NCBI GenBank assembly: GCA_009838975.1
Contig: VXQO01000106.1
Coordinates: 1-40,156 of the forward strand
Length of the DNA: 40,156 nt
Source of the DNA: Gemmatimonadota bacterium
GTDB lineage: Bacteria > Gemmatimonadota > Gemmatimonadetes > Longimicrobiales > Gaopeijiaceae
Reading direction: 5' to 3'
The position numbers and the translations under genes were made by a program. The notes under the pieces were generated by a model, which saw nothing but the letters and a program-made list of their open reading frames with translations, was not told where the DNA came from and did no database searches. Numbering within the stretch: the first letter of the stretch is position 1; each line of letters begins with the position of its first letter. Shown here in pieces: positions 16,364 through 30,864 of the stretch.

Positions 16364-17365
16364 ATGAAGAAGAGGAACAGCGCACCGAGCCCGTTCGGAA
16401 TCGCGGCGCTGGACCTGTTTGCATCGGCCCTCGGTGCCTTCATCCTGATCGCGGTCGTCATCTTCCCGATGATCGGGGAGGCGCTGCCGGACATCCCGGC
16501 CCCGCCGGCTCCCACCATTATGGCCGTGCCAACTCCCGACTCGGTCGTGTGCCCGGTGTGTCCCACGTGTCCGGTCGTCGCCGCCGTTGTGGAGCCGATC
16601 GCCTGCCCGGTGTGCCCCACATGCCCGGTCCCGGAACCCGTGCCGGAGACGATCTGTCCCGCCGTGCCCGACCCCGTCGCGTGCCCGGTCTGCCCTACGG
16701 TGCCTGCCCCCGTCATATGCCCGGAGCCCGCGCCTGCGCCGATCCAGGTGGACGCGCCGCAATTCCGGTTCCCTCATCTCGACCTCATCGTCGCGCTGGA
16801 TGTCACCAACAGCATGCGCGGGCAGGTCGCCTCGCTGAAGGCCGAGGTCGAACAGCTGGCCGTCCTCATGAACCGGATCTCGCCGAGCTTCGGCATCGGG
16901 ATGGTCGCGTTCGGCGATCGCCGATGGGAGAGCCCGCTGTTTCTGTTCCCGTTGCGGGAAATCTCCGGCCCGACCGCGAACCGCGACGCGTTCCGCACGT
17001 TCGTAAACGGCCTGTCGGTGGGCATGGGAACCGGACGCGGCAACAACCCCGACAGTCCCGAGGCCTTCTATGACGCGCTTTCGGCGGCTTCCCGGATGAC
17101 CTGGCGGCCGCGATCCGAGCGAAGGGTCGTCGTTCTGGTGACCGACAACCCGGCGTACGCCGAGGAGATCGATCGGTCCATCCAGGTCGCAACCGGCATC
17201 GGACGACCCGAAGGACATCGGGTCTCCACGGTCTACGTCAGGACGGGGGGCACGAACTCCGCCACGGAAGAGTTTCTTCGCAGCGTCGCTGAAGCTGGCG
17301 GTGGCCAGTACGTGCGAGACGTCGGAGGCTCACTGACGGTCAACCTGCTCCTGTCTCTGTTCTGA
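16364..17365 (+). CDS. single-TM protein with Cys-Pro stalk and C-terminal VWA domain
   Basis: A 333-residue protein with three parts. One N-terminal membrane helix (about 12-38) carries an Asp at position 17 in ALDLFASALGAF, the layout of the proton-path Asp in MotB/ExbD/ZorB-type subunits. A Pro-rich stalk (41-128) holds ten Cys, including two CPVCPTCP repeats (63-70, 81-88) and CPVCP (107-111). A von Willebrand A domain (about 138-333) has MIDAS-type DVTNS (146-150) and Asp 261 in LVTDNP. It should sit in the inner membrane with the VWA domain in the periplasm. Its 3' end overlaps the MotA/ExbB-like gene by 36 bases, tail to tail. Partnership with that protein is inferred. Confidence 0.72.
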   Translation: MKKRNSAPSPFGIAALDLFASALGAFILIAVVIFPMIGEALPDIPAPPAPTIMAVPTPDSVVCPVCPTCPVVAAVVEPIACPVCPTCPVPEPVPETICPAVPDPVACPVCPTVPAPVICPEPAPAPIQVDAPQFRFPHLDLIVALDVTNSMRGQVASLKAEVEQLAVLMNRISPSFGIGMVAFGDRRWESPLFLFPLREISGPTANRDAFRTFVNGLSVGMGTGRGNNPDSPEAFYDALSAASRMTWRPRSERRVVVLVTDNPAYAEEIDRSIQVATGIGRPEGHRVSTVYVRTGGTNSATEEFLRSVAEAGGGQYVRDVGGSLTVNLLLSLF

Positions 17366-18169
17366 CCCCACCAGTCTGTTCGACAGATTGCCCAGGCAGT
17401 ACTGGCCGATCCTGTTCAGGACACCCTCTTCCTTCCCCCGGATGATGTACATCGCGAACATCAGCACCGCCGATTGCATCAGGGCGAGCAGGGTCGTGTA
17501 GAACGCAACCCCGAGGTCCCCCGTCAACTGCTCCATCATCTCGGGTCCGAGCGATCCCTCCGTGATGCTGGCGCCCGCGAACATGACCCCGGCGCTGCGC
17601 ATCGCGAATGCGATACCCAGTACGGTCCCGATGAAGCCGAGCGTCGGTACCAGCCAGACGACGTAGCGCAACATGTTGTACCGCTGCTCGATTTCATGCT
17701 GATAGAGTTCGAGCGACACGTTGGTCATCGTGTTGATCTGGTCCACCGACCCGCTGTTGCGGAATTGCAGAAGCGCGCTGGTCAGCAGGCGCTGCAGCAG
17801 GTAGCGCCTCTCCGGGTCGGACTCGACCACCCGATGGTAGATCGGGGTCAGGTCGCGTTTGCGCAGGATGGTCTCGTCGTCCTCAGGCAAAAGCCCGAGG
17901 TGTATCTGCTCGCCCTCCCGGCGGCCCGCGAGATGGCGCACCACCAACTCCCCGGCGGCCGCGCAGAAGACGATCCACATCACGTTCTGTATGGTGAACG
18001 GGTAGGGGAAGATCCGGGTGTTCCTGTCGACCAGCAGTTCGGCGGCCATGCTGTCGTCGCCGGCCGGGAACACGTAGGACAGGACCCCCACGAGAACGAT
18101 GCCGACCAGCAGGGAGACGAACAGGGTTACGGCTCGGAACGGTACCTGCTCGTCCCTCCTGTCGCTCAT
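17330..18169 (-). CDS. MotA/TolQ/ExbB-like proton channel family membrane protein
   Basis: A 279-residue protein with four predicted membrane helices: about 14-34, 59-79, 167-192 and 217-243. A cytoplasmic segment of roughly 85 residues lies between TM2 and TM3. TM3 (VPTLGFIGTVLGIAF) and TM4 (VAFYTTLLALMQSA) carry the small-residue and Thr pattern characteristic of ion-pathway helices in MotA, TolQ and ExbB. Such proteins form pentamers around a dimer of single-TM Asp-bearing partners; the neighbouring VWA protein has that shape. The start overlaps the stop of the LRR gene (ATGA), so they are co-translated. No flagellar, Tol or TonB genes are nearby. Confidence 0.8.
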   Translation of the reverse strand: MSDRRDEQVPFRAVTLFVSLLVGIVLVGVLSYVFPAGDDSMAAELLVDRNTRIFPYPFTIQNVMWIVFCAAAGELVVRHLAGRREGEQIHLGLLPEDDETILRKRDLTPIYHRVVESDPERRYLLQRLLTSALLQFRNSGSVDQINTMTNVSLELYQHEIEQRYNMLRYVVWLVPTLGFIGTVLGIAFAMRSAGVMFAGASITEGSLGPEMMEQLTGDLGVAFYTTLLALMQSAVLMFAMYIIRGKEEGVLNRIGQYCLGNLSNRLVGSEQRQEQVDRQ

Positions 18170-19629
18170 CGCCGCCCGCACTCGGGAAGGCGAACTCCGC
18201 CCAGCTGGGGATTGATGCCGGACTCGAAGCGCATCAGCGGCTTCGGTATGCATCCCGAGAGGCGATTGTCGCGGAGTGTCAGCCGCCTCAGGCTGGTCAG
18301 ATTGGCCAGTTCGGCAGGTATCTGCCCGGAAAGCTGGTTCCCGCTGAGGGCAAGGAGTTCGAGCTGCACCAGTTGGCCCAGCTCGGGCGGGATCCGGCCG
18401 GCGATCTGCGTTCGGGAAAGGCGCAGCCGCTTGAGGCTCGCCAGCTTCCCCAGGTCCGGCGGGATGATCCCGGTCAGCGGGTTGTTGTACAGGTGCAGGT
18501 CCTCGAGGTTCGACATCGCACCCAGTTCGGCCGGTATCTGGCCCGACAGCTGGTTGTCCTCGAGGAACAGCGCCTTGAGCTTGCCCAGCGAGCCCAGCTC
18601 GGCCGGAATCGCACCGGTCAGCCGGTTTCCACCCAGGTTGAGGAGCTCCAATTCCGTGACGCGAGCGAGCCGCGTGGGAATCACGCCCCCCAGATTGTGC
18701 CCGTTGAGGTCGAGCCCCACGACGTTCTCACCGCGAGACCGCACACCGGTCCAGGACCGCCGGGGCAAGGCGAGACCCCAGTTCAGGTCGCCGGTGGTCC
18801 CGGCCAGATCGCTTCTCGCGGCGAGCAGCAGCTGTTCGTCGGTAAGCCGCTCTTCGGCCCGCCGGCGCGCCGCCTCCATGGTCCGGGCCTGTCGCTGCGC
18901 CGGGTTCCCCAGCCGCTCGGCCGCGGTCCGGCGGGCCTGGTCCACCCGCTCCTGCTCCGCCAAGCGGGCCTCTTCCGCCAACCGGGCCTGCTCCGCCAGG
19001 CGGGCCTCTTCAGCCAGCCGCTCCTGCTCCGCCAAGCGGGCCTCTTCCGCCAGACGGGCCTGCTCCGCGATCCGCTCCATCTCCAGGCGAGCTTCTTCCG
19101 CCAACCGCGCGTCCTCGGCCCGGCGGGCCTCCTCGGCGAGCCGCCGCTCCTCCTCACGCCGCTCGGCGTCGACGCGGGCCTGTTCCGCCAACCGCTCCTC
19201 GCGTGCGATCCGACGTTCCTCGGCGAGCCGCCGCACCTCGGCCTCCGCCTCGTCCCTGCGGCGCGCCTCTTCCGCCTGCGCCTCCGCCTCCCGCCCCGCC
19301 GCCAGCAGTTCCGTCAGGCTGGTGCGGTCGAGATATCCCGTGGCCTCGATGCCCCGGTCGGTCTGCCATTCCCGGAGTCCCTGGCGCGCTTCGGGTTCCA
19401 GCACGCCGTCGGCGTCCCCGGCGTAGCGCCCCTCGGCGGAAAGTCCGAGTTCGACCAGCGCCAGGACATCGGTGCCGAGTCCGAGTTGAGCCTCCTGGGC
19501 GGCGGCACGCTGCTCCGGCGTTAGGGTCCGGCTCCGTGCCACGAAGACCATCAGGGCAGCTGCGCCCACGATTATGGTGACGCCAGCCGCATATGAGAGA
19601 CGACGAAGGCTTGCCCCGGGGCGCCCCAT
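18166..19629 (-). CDS. membrane-anchored protein with PG-binding-like, coiled-coil and plant-type LRR domains
   Basis: A 487-residue protein. An N-terminal membrane helix (12-31) is followed by a segment resembling a peptidoglycan-binding domain 1 (about 55-111: GDADGVLEPEARQGLREWQ). A long charged coiled coil follows (about 112-265) built of ARLAEE/ARLAEQ repeats like TolA. The end (about 281-470) is seven plant-type leucine-rich repeats of the form L..N.LSG.IPAELG.L. The LRR cap W.GVRSRGENVVGLDL is typical of bacterial LRRs of this class. Topology suggests a periplasm-spanning rod presenting an LRR recognition surface. The start is the ATG at 19629, overlapping the upstream TGA by one base. 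In-frame codons upstream are rejected because the TM starts here. Confidence 0.78.
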   Translation of the reverse strand: MGRPGASLRRLSYAAGVTIIVGAAALMVFVARSRTLTPEQRAAAQEAQLGLGTDVLALVELGLSAEGRYAGDADGVLEPEARQGLREWQTDRGIEATGYLDRTSLTELLAAGREAEAQAEEARRRDEAEAEVRRLAEERRIAREERLAEQARVDAERREEERRLAEEARRAEDARLAEEARLEMERIAEQARLAEEARLAEQERLAEEARLAEQARLAEEARLAEQERVDQARRTAAERLGNPAQRQARTMEAARRRAEERLTDEQLLLAARSDLAGTTGDLNWGLALPRRSWTGVRSRGENVVGLDLNGHNLGGVIPTRLARVTELELLNLGGNRLTGAIPAELGSLGKLKALFLEDNQLSGQIPAELGAMSNLEDLHLYNNPLTGIIPPDLGKLASLKRLRLSRTQIAGRIPPELGQLVQLELLALSGNQLSGQIPAELANLTSLRRLTLRDNRLSGCIPKPLMRFESGINPQLGGVRLPECGRR

Positions 19630-20699
19630 CACCGGCTCCAGACGAGGCCGATCTCGGTACGGCCCGCGGCGCGCCTGACGAACAGATCCGGCGTGGCCAC
19701 GGCCACGGGAGTCTTCGGCGACGACGGCGACGCGCTCACGCGCGAGATCGCCTCGATCTCGGACATCTTCCTCGATCCGAGCACCCAATCGGCCGCGCCC
19801 CAGACTCCGAGCAGGCTCCCCACGCCGATGAACCACCTGTTCGCGGTCTCGGTCCGGTCCCGCCTGTGCGCCGCGGACAGGTACTCCCACTCCGCGTCGT
19901 AGTCCGCCCGGTCCGGAACGCCCAGCCAGGGCAGCCACTTCACCGTCGCGTAGGAGCCGCCCGCCATGATGGCGCCCCAGAGGAACCTCCTCTTCCCCGA
20001 CCCGCGCCTCCCGCTGGCGTCCCTGTACTGATCCTCCAGAGCCGGACTGGCCAATGTGGGGAGCTCGCCTTCCATCGTCTCCATGTCCCGGCTTCCCAGG
20101 ACAAAGTCGGCGGCCCCCCAGGTGAGCAGGCCGGCACCAGCCAGCGTGACGCCGTTCCTGACGGTGCGCGCCGTCGAGTGCCTGTCAATTGCGGCTTGAT
20201 GGGAGGCCGGGTCGGCGTACGCGTCCTCGTCCCCCGGCTCGAACACGATCCTGGTCGTGGCAATGGCGACGATGGCCAGCGTCCCTCCCCACAACCACCT
20301 CTTCAGGCCCGACGACCGGCGCCCCTTCGACCTCTCGTATTGCGCGTGGATGTCCGGGATCACGGATCCCGTCGCCGTGGGCTGCGCTCCGCCCGTCACG
20401 GTTCCCACGACCTCGACTTCCGCAGCGAGGACGTATCCGATCAAGTCGTCCTCGCCGGGCTGGCCGGGTATCGACACGATATGGTACGGACCCGACTCCC
20501 CGATCCAGTCGAGCGTCGCACCTGCCGCCAAGTTGGCGATGATCGGGCCGGAATCGGACGGGTCAAGCCGGACGGCCGCGCCATTGCCTAGCGCCCTGAC
20601 CTGTTGGGCCGAGGCGAGCCCGTGCCCGGTAGCGAGTGGTGCGAAGGAGACTCCGAGAATCATGATGCCAGCGCCGACCAGGCCGTGCTTCAGCTTCAT
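19629..20699 (-). CDS. exported SH3-like protein with two 92-residue membrane repeats
   Basis: A 356-residue protein with a signal peptide (cleavage after ASA-Q near residue 31). A small beta domain (about 33-98) resembles a bacterial SH3 fold (AAVRLDPSDSGPIIANL). It then has two related copies of a 92-residue unit (about 115-206 and 221-312). Each copy has a basic stretch, a first helix (WLWGGTLA or FLWGAIMA) and a second helix ending WGAAD(F/W)VLGSR. I recognise no family for the repeat. It heads the three-gene minus-strand operon with the LRR and MotA/ExbB-like genes. It may be a peptidoglycan- or envelope-linked accessory of that complex (inference). Confidence 0.65.
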   Translation of the reverse strand: MKLKHGLVGAGIMILGVSFAPLATGHGLASAQQVRALGNGAAVRLDPSDSGPIIANLAAGATLDWIGESGPYHIVSIPGQPGEDDLIGYVLAAEVEVVGTVTGGAQPTATGSVIPDIHAQYERSKGRRSSGLKRWLWGGTLAIVAIATTRIVFEPGDEDAYADPASHQAAIDRHSTARTVRNGVTLAGAGLLTWGAADFVLGSRDMETMEGELPTLASPALEDQYRDASGRRGSGKRRFLWGAIMAGGSYATVKWLPWLGVPDRADYDAEWEYLSAAHRRDRTETANRWFIGVGSLLGVWGAADWVLGSRKMSEIEAISRVSASPSSPKTPVAVATPDLFVRRAAGRTEIGLVWSR

Positions 20700-29500: not shown

Positions 29501-29674
29501 CTCACGCACCTGCCGCTGACCTTTGAGCATGCTGAACGATGCACGGGCCTGCCGAACCATCACCGTGACCCGTTCGACAGGATGCTGATCGCCCAGGCGC
29601 AGTCCAAAGGACTGGTGCTGGTCACGCGAGGCGCGCGCATTCCGCTCTACGACGTGCTGGCGATGTCGGCCTGA
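29501..29674 (+). pseudogene. C-terminal remnant of a VapC-like PIN-domain toxin
   Basis: The frame ending at TGA 29672-29674 reads LPLTFEHAERC, then HHRDPFDRMLIAQAQ, then GLVLVTRGARI. That is the C-terminal half of PIN-domain toxins of the type LPxxHxDPFDRMLIAQA. The N-terminal half with the first catalytic Asp/Glu residues is absent: the frame opens right after the stop of the DUF1080 gene, and no start codon fits. The 3' end overlaps the convergent fic gene by 28 bases. This looks like a toxin-antitoxin module broken by a deletion. Confidence 0.6.
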
Positions 29675-30864
29675 CTCGGCGGTCGCCCGGCCTCCAGTCT
29701 CTCCACCAGTTCAAGCAGCCCCGTGGCTTCCCAGAGACGGTTGCGTTTCGACCTGGACAGCGGAATCAGCACGCCCGCGTTCACGAGTTGCCGCACGGCC
29801 GCGTGCACCGCCGACGGGGCCCGCCCGGTGTCGGCTATGGCGTCGGCCGCCGACATGACCGGATGAGCCGGCAGCGCATCGATCACCGCCCAGGCCGCGG
29901 CATCGGCCCTGGGGTTGGGGCCCGCCGCCAGTTGGTGGCGCCACTGGTCCTGCAGGTCGCGCACGGCGCCGAGGTAACGGGACGCAAGTGCGGCGGCGCG
30001 CGCTGCGGCCTCAGCGAATTCCGCCACCCACTGCACCGGATCTCCAAACCGGAACCGGCCCAGCCCCTCAATGTAGGCATCCCTCTCCGAAGCCAGGATA
30101 ACGCTGATCGGAGGAACGTAGCGCGGCGCGATGCCACGCCGACGGAGCACGACCTGCACGAGTGCGCGACCGGTCCGCCCGTTGCCATCCTCAAAAGGGT
30201 GGATGGTCTCGAACTGCGCGTGCACCAGCGCTGCCTGCGCGAGCGGTGGGAGGTCCTCGCGGTTCATTGCGTCCGTCAGGTCCTCCAGCAACGAATGAAC
30301 GTGGTCCGGCGGAGGGGGCACGAAATCGGCACCACACGGGTTGTAGTCGTTCCCCCCGATCCAGTTCTGGACCGTCCGCACCTGTCCCGCTACGTGGCGG
30401 TTGGACGCGTGGGCCATGACGAGCCGGTGTATCCCGACAATGTCCGCGGTAGCAAACCGGCGTTGGGCCGACGCCGCGTCCATTGCGACCCGCATGGCGT
30501 CCACATTGTCCAACACCTCACGGGCCGTCGCACCGACCCGCAAACCCGATTCCGCCCTCGATGCGGCACGTGCCATCGCCCGTACGCCGACCGCAATCCC
30601 CTCGACCCTGGAGGAAGAGATCGACTCCGTGCGGAGCAGCTGGCGGGCGAGAGGAGCGAGCACATCGGAGCGCTCCGAGTTCAGCGCGTGGATCGCGCCC
30701 TCCGCATCCGACACGAGGCCCGCCGTGGCAGCGTCGAGCGCAAAGGGAAGGTCAGCGAGAGGGTCGGGAAGGAAGGCGTCGTACGCGCACGCCCTCCGGT
30801 ACTTCGGGGGCGCGTACAGTATGGGATCGTGGCGCCAAATCAGACGGATGTGATGTCCGGGCAT
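29647..30864 (-). CDS. Fic family protein (probable AMP transferase) with N-terminal inhibitory motif
   Basis: A 405-residue cytoplasmic protein. The Fic motif is complete: HPFEDGNGRTGR (222-233), giving the catalytic His and the phosphate-binding loop. A self-inhibitory helix motif SSSRVEG (83-89; Ser-x-x-x-Glu-Gly) near the N-terminus marks a class II Fic enzyme, whose Glu blocks productive ATP binding. The C-terminal third (about 330-390) looks like a winged helix-turn-helix. Fic proteins transfer AMP from ATP to target Tyr/Thr residues. The wHTH and the palindrome at 30885-30913, just upstream of the ATG, suggest autoregulation. Confidence 0.87.
   Translation of the reverse strand: MPGHHIRLIWRHDPILYAPPKYRRACAYDAFLPDPLADLPFALDAATAGLVSDAEGAIHALNSERSDVLAPLARQLLRTESISSSRVEGIAVGVRAMARAASRAESGLRVGATAREVLDNVDAMRVAMDAASAQRRFATADIVGIHRLVMAHASNRHVAGQVRTVQNWIGGNDYNPCGADFVPPPPDHVHSLLEDLTDAMNREDLPPLAQAALVHAQFETIHPFEDGNGRTGRALVQVVLRRRGIAPRYVPPISVILASERDAYIEGLGRFRFGDPVQWVAEFAEAAARAAALASRYLGAVRDLQDQWRHQLAAGPNPRADAAAWAVIDALPAHPVMSAADAIADTGRAPSAVHAAVRQLVNAGVLIPLSRSKRNRLWEATGLLELVERLEAGRPPSQADIASTS

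Follow-up and report, generated by a model that had tools for sequence, protein, structure and literature searches.

A four-gene Gemmatimonadota module with a MotA/ExbB/TolQ-type channel and a VWA-domain protein as a candidate proton-driven envelope motor

Motors of the 5:2 type power flagella, nutrient import, outer-membrane upkeep, gliding and phage defence. Four adjacent genes in a 40,156-nucleotide stretch of Gemmatimonadota DNA (the window) raise the question of whether they encode another such machine, whether it is of a new kind and what it would do in the cell envelope. A preliminary description of the locus had proposed a new proton-driven device made of a MotA/ExbB-like channel, a VWA-domain partner with an Asp-bearing membrane helix, a TolA-like LRR protein and an SH3-like membrane protein.

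Gene order and inheritance of the module

All four open reading frames announced for 16364-20699 were present. The gene of the VWA protein, the putative axle (B) subunit of 333 aa, occupies 16364..17365 on the + strand. The remaining three genes are on the - strand and encode the channel (A) subunit of 279 aa (17330..18169) and the LRR protein of 487 aa (18166..19629), both with Pfam support, and the SH3-like protein of 356 aa (19629..20699), whose Pfam match is weak. The ATGA overlap at 18166-18169 and the 1-base overlap (TGATG at 19629) are real. The clustering was described correctly, but the strand difference of the VWA gene had been missed. This gene lies tail to tail with the channel gene, with a convergent 3' overlap of 36 bp (17330..17365) whose length varies among relatives, while the other three genes form an overlapping run on the - strand; given the convergent pair, the four genes are not one operon. 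The convergent order is retained in the close relatives of the window. All module genes are codirectional in loci L037-L040, and the four most distant loci read VWA-SH3-SH3-LRR-channel or SH3-LRR-channel-VWA, again with all genes codirectional. Values of dN/dS between 0.09 and 0.44 across the four genes indicate purifying selection. The window flanks are metabolic and peptidase genes, and a Fic/DOC family protein is encoded in the window at 29647-30864 (PF02661, 4.4e-21).

A protein search found the channel in 19 of 148 related genomes, 18 of these within the genus of the window. Co-occurrence had been set in advance as a refutation test, and all four genes were found at the loci of all 19 channel-bearing genomes (at L030 the SH3-like gene is lost to a contig end), with flanking genes that vary between the relatives' loci. 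Within the genus, 20 of 23 genomes carry the module, whole or as a fragment truncated by a contig end, and three are without it; the channel, VWA and SH3-like genes are jointly absent from G002, G010 and G014. For G008 and G015 we rejected channel loss, since the VWA gene sits at contig edges there and the absence of the channel is a contig-end artefact. The module is rare across the phylum, with 22 of 395 genomes matching at E 1e-10, the two weakest being members of a different group. It is not the only such motor of its own genome, which has three other strong MotA_ExbB genes, all on other contigs.

The four genes are thus a real unit, inherited together. That they are unrelated genes and neighbours by accident, as the opposite strand of the window axle gene might suggest, is so improbable that we rejected it, as far as comparative genomics can, on their co-occurrence in all relatives despite reshuffled order and orientation and on their joint absence elsewhere.

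The channel and the putative axle

The channel protein is a MotA/ExbB/TolQ-type subunit, as had been proposed from its helix plan and Thr-Gly pattern. It matches PF01618 (MotA_ExbB) at 3.9e-10, with 40 bits against a cut-off of 22.9, and has four TM segments, and it lacks the long cytosolic tail of ZorA. The TM3 motif P-xx-G-F-x-G-T-V-x-G (P175...T182) and Thr226 of TM4 are invariant in 39 diverse homologues, the fixed positions being P175, G178, G181, T182, G185 and T226. In the AlphaFold model (pLDDT 89) the helices are arranged as expected for an ExbB/TolQ subunit, and all 50 PDB matches listed for the model are ExbB, TolQ, ZorA or MotA/PomA chains; these matches are remote, ExbB chains being the best with a lowest E of 1.3e-3 among those listed. 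The channel profile matched no solved channel among PDB sequences. A phage origin was rejected since the protein had no match in phage records, and among plasmid homologues there was a single near-full-length match, on a Rhizobium megaplasmid. In two Gemmatimonadota genomes (L061, L062) a MotA/ExbB-like domain occurs within longer proteins, preceded in L062 by a zinc-ribbon-like N-terminus (CPNCATPAKPEQEFCLVCG).

The VWA protein has a single TM helix (residues 10-38) with an invariant Asp17 in the signature ALDLFASALGAFIL. The helix reads FGIAALDLFASALGAFILIAVVIFP, an Asp-bearing trans-pore helix with no SHLS motif. The head is a C-terminal VWA domain (139-332) with a DxTxS metal-site motif, found by Pfam as an integrin-beta-type VWA (6.7e-6, above cut-off) and confirmed in fold by Foldseek (3e-10), with matches to BatB, ANTXR and integrin-beta. 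The proposed combination of an N-terminal Asp17 helix and a VWA domain is supported. The DxTxS motif and the TD pair are largely conserved into Gammaproteobacteria. The Asp, whose conservation had been named as a check, is kept in 99 of 99 homologues found in several phyla, a figure that is only partly independent since Asp was a required residue in one scan pattern, though not in the other (ASALGAFIL).

The stalk that joins helix and head is a Cys-Pro stretch of about 97 residues with 10 cysteines, and the protein has no cysteine elsewhere. In 20 of 20 Gemmatimonadota axles every cysteine is in the stalk and the count is even (6-12), and solely from these two features it is plausible that disulfides stiffen the stalk. 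Some gammaproteobacterial stalks have odd cysteine counts within the stretch examined. Stalk type varies, being a coiled coil in most Proteobacteria and Cys-Pro-rich in Gemmatimonadota, with the Cys-Pro-rich type recurring in Alteromonas, Marinobacter and Methyloprofundus. There are also axles without a VWA domain (L094, L097, L114, L096), which end either in a domain containing the motif D(I/V)D(L/M)HV or in one that starts with FVLVVI; in the members scanned (L094, L096, L116) the C-terminal domains of such axles had no Pfam match.

As in MotAB, ExbBD and TolQR (PMC9389320), an Asp helix inside a pentamer lined with Thr implies that a dimeric axle is rotated by protons. The VWA protein fits the role of an ExbD/MotB-like axle partner to the channel, and a motor architecture of the module is likely. 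Counting against this reading, the axle gene in the window clade is not co-transcribed with the channel gene.

The partner proteins and the wider family

The SH3-like protein has a signal or anchor helix (6-24), an SH3-like segment (40-95) and two repeats of about 92 residues, each with hydrophobic helices. The SH3 assignment is weak (SH3_3, 0.007, below cut-off).

The LRR protein begins with a short basic N-tail and a TM helix (13-31), followed by a PG_binding_1-like domain, a charged coiled coil of about 150 residues and the LRRs. Both named domains, which had been claimed from the letters, score above the Pfam cut-off (PG_binding_1 2.4e-5, LRR_1 9e-23). The counterparts in L075 and L081 carry a full-length N-terminal kinase domain (Pkinase 1.9e-22 and 6.6e-18, respectively) ahead of the TM helix, PG_binding_1, coil and LRR. 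The catalytic residues of these two kinase domains are replaced, the VAIK Lys by Gln or Thr, HRD by HLD and DFG by GFG; the gammaproteobacterial kinase of L096 retains AIK, HRD and DFG. L076, L079 and L083 retain no more of the kinase domain than an N-lobe remnant. In L040 and the window clade there is no kinase and the LRR protein starts a few residues ahead of its TM helix; the receptor Ser/Thr kinase motifs VAIK, HRD and DFG are absent from the LRR protein of the window. This decay series in relatives indicates that the LRR protein derives by truncation from a membrane receptor kinase, with conservation persisting in its outer half. Its TolA-like architecture stands, but TolA-like descent does not. 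L040 groups with L075 in the channel tree, apart from the window clade, so the kinase was probably lost completely at least twice. Additional LRR proteins adjoin the module at L076:14211-16989 and L075:1622-3619, one of them with Big_2 domains.

The axle alignment, scanned against approximately 85,000 genomes, yielded 79 loci. The record L077, titled Gammaproteobacteria, has coordinates equal to those of the G288 contig from the window's own family; it is a probable mislabelled or mis-binned public entry and was left out of the evidence for wider spread. Among the 56 loci outside the Gemmatimonadota module, 41 have the channel within the stretch fetched. Genes for FHA, PP2C, Ser/Thr kinase and trypsin-like proteins are their usual neighbours (at least one in 49 of the 56 loci, at least two in 43 and at least three in 28), and in 29 of the 41 clusters the gene next upstream of the channel gene encodes an FHA protein, but many of these loci are closely related, so that the figures do not represent independent events. 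In a sample of loci these domains were confirmed by Pfam.

The association was also examined free of the axle, with the channel profile alone, in 369 genomes of a Gammaproteobacteria sample and 199 of an Acidobacteriota sample. Strong matches (E <1e-80) were obtained in 6 and 4 genomes, respectively, three of the ten being starting genomes, with a wide gap to a sister group near 1e-30. Of the new contigs, four (L186-L189) were of sufficient length for assessment, and each of them has FHA, PP2C and trypsin genes along with the axle signature. The channel and axle genes of a Rhizobium conjugative megaplasmid are accompanied by FHA, PP2C and kinase genes. The Gemmatimonadota module forms a single clade in the channel tree (100/100), nested in the wider family (100/98, 99/96); its neighbours there are Acidobacteriota, Chromatiales and Binatota members from loci with FHA, PP2C, kinase or trypsin-type genes. 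The placement of MotA in this tree is unreliable (branch 9.2). The FHA/PP2C/kinase/protease context could not be seen from the window by itself.

Several arrangements were seen among these loci. Clusters of channel, Asp-helix axle, FHA, PP2C, Ser/Thr kinase and trypsin-like protease occur at L088, L091, L096, L099, L104, L110, L186-L189 and L158, in Pseudomonadota, Acidobacteriota, Binatota and Latescibacterota; the kinase there often has an FGE-sulfatase domain and the trypsin-like protease is fused to FHA. L115 and L118-L142 have tandem axle gene pairs, many with a 4 bp overlap, and a single channel gene, and the order in L106 is axle-channel-axle. In the sister group (L190-L196, E ~1e-30) the channel gene is immediately preceded by one of FGE-sulfatase type, and two loci have weak axle matches.

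Proposed mechanism, alternatives and known motors

We propose, with moderate confidence, that the module is a proton-driven envelope force transducer of the 5:2 type with a lost kinase arm. The channel protein would form a pentameric ring of the MotAB/ExbBD/TolQR type, with the Asp17 helices of two VWA proteins inside it as the axle. Proton passage at the site made up of Asp17, Thr182 and Thr226 would rotate or cycle this axle, and its Cys-Pro stalk of about 100 residues would raise the VWA head above the membrane. There the head, with its metal-site motif, may bind and hold a ligand that lies within the cell wall or farther out, and the axle would turn, pull or press it far from the membrane; the output that we infer is force on the wall or the outer membrane. 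The LRR and SH3-like proteins would be dedicated partners, the former a receptor or rod and the latter a membrane or wall anchor. The ancestor would have been phospho-regulated, its membrane Ser/Thr kinase, PP2C, FHA and trypsin-like protease controlling or reading the motor. In the lineage of the window the kinase domain would have decayed and then been lost, with the TM helix and periplasmic part retained. More tentatively, and with somewhat less than even confidence, the wider family may be a widespread class of such motors, made of channel, Asp-helix axle, FHA, PP2C, a membrane kinase and a transmembrane protease, in which phosphorylation switches the 5:2 machine on or off, with the kinase in Gemmatimonadota passing through pseudokinase and stump to complete loss and leaving its LRR/PG-binding part as a motor partner.

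The strongest alternative is an envelope sensor, in which ligand binding by the VWA, LRR and SH3-like proteins gates the ion flow or the conformation of the channel, kinase, FHA and PP2C provided the ancestral readout and no useful mechanical work is done. The receptor-type kinase descent of the LRR partner and the FHA gene immediately upstream of the channel in those 29 of 41 clusters are consistent with it. We consider it unlikely, as the window clade has no cytosolic kinase output and yet keeps channel and axle with invariant pore residues.

An anti-phage defence motor in the style of Zorya, which the preliminary description had raised, is considerably less probable. The channel core is common to ZorA (E 7.8e-4), and so is the motor principle; the presence of the module is patchy and its flanks variable, and PADLOC models recognise both the kinase and the PP2C found in the wider family, although these models catch kinases generally. 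Against this, the core segment of ZorA is all that matched: the long ZorA tail, ZorB with its C-terminal domain, ZorC/D/E, a nuclease and a helicase are all missing among the four genes, and membership in Zorya was rejected. The metabolic and peptidase flanks of the window, the lack of a match in phage records and the presence of the module in 20 of the 23 genus members, which is above what is usual for a defence gene, point the same way. Equally doubtful is a surface adhesion or gliding device, with a VWA/LRR adhesin that the motor would move or display. VWA and LRR are typical binding modules, and the extra LRR proteins beside the module in L076 and L075, including the one with Big_2, would suit such a role, but both heads are anchored in the inner membrane and their predicted spans match the periplasm, and the module has no outer-membrane or secretion gene.

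The force-transducer reading can be set against other motors with the same channel fold. TolQR-TolA shares with the module the Asp-helix axle and a long TM-anchored rod protein, but the axle of the module ends in a VWA instead of a TolR domain, its LRR protein has an LRR head and kinase ancestry instead of TolA descent, and TolR, TolB, Pal and CpoB are all absent from the module cluster. ExbBD-TonB likewise has an Asp-helix axle, whereas the module has a VWA head on a 97-residue stalk and neither TonB nor a TonB-dependent receptor. The MotAB/PomAB stators share the Asp helix, periplasmic extension and pore Thr/Pro, but the module is without an OmpA-type wall-binding domain or flagellar genes. 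The threonine phosphorylation pathway of the T6SS consists of PpkA, PppA and Fha; its membrane kinase, PP2C and FHA proteins have counterparts in the wider family, but its output is a secretion system in place of a MotA/ExbB-type motor, and this arm is absent from the window.

As a kind, the machine is not new. The consulted part of PMC12204202 (Mol Biol Evol 2025) predicts TPH-vWA motors, in which VWA proteins with an Asp trans-pore helix act with a lone TolQ-like channel, and its AF3 models put the Asp inside the Thr ring; this independent prediction for a pairing of like kind supports the motor reading of the module. The module shares with these the lone tolQ-like channel gene with no tolR or exbD nearby, the Asp axle helix and the VWA head. 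The TPH-vWA motors, described from Proteobacteria and Verrucomicrobia, mostly have heterologous axle pairs, which are predominant though not obligatory, whereas each Gemmatimonadota locus has a single axle gene and lacks such a pair. Tandem axle pairs in many gammaproteobacterial loci of our channel family do fit the published description of TPH-vWA motors. Compared with that same part of the paper, the Cys-Pro stalk, the SH3-like and LRR partners and the decayed kinase set the Gemmatimonadota module apart, and kinase, phosphatase, FHA or protease neighbours are not mentioned there. The single-axle variants with these partners, the phospho-signalling neighbours of the wider family and the receptor-kinase ancestry and decay of the LRR protein are apparently new: a search of open-access papers, with subscription papers and preprints outside its scope, found none of them, nor the channel together with FHA, PP2C or kinase genes.

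A VWA-headed motor class beside eukaryote-like phospho-signalling genes would tie proton-driven force to a regulated signal. The residues at which this can be tested are at hand (Asp17, Thr182, Thr226, the stalk cysteines and the VWA metal site), and the wider family includes the cultivable hosts Marinobacter, Alteromonas and Methylobacterium. The graded loss of the kinase shows the minimum set of parts that the putative motor would need.
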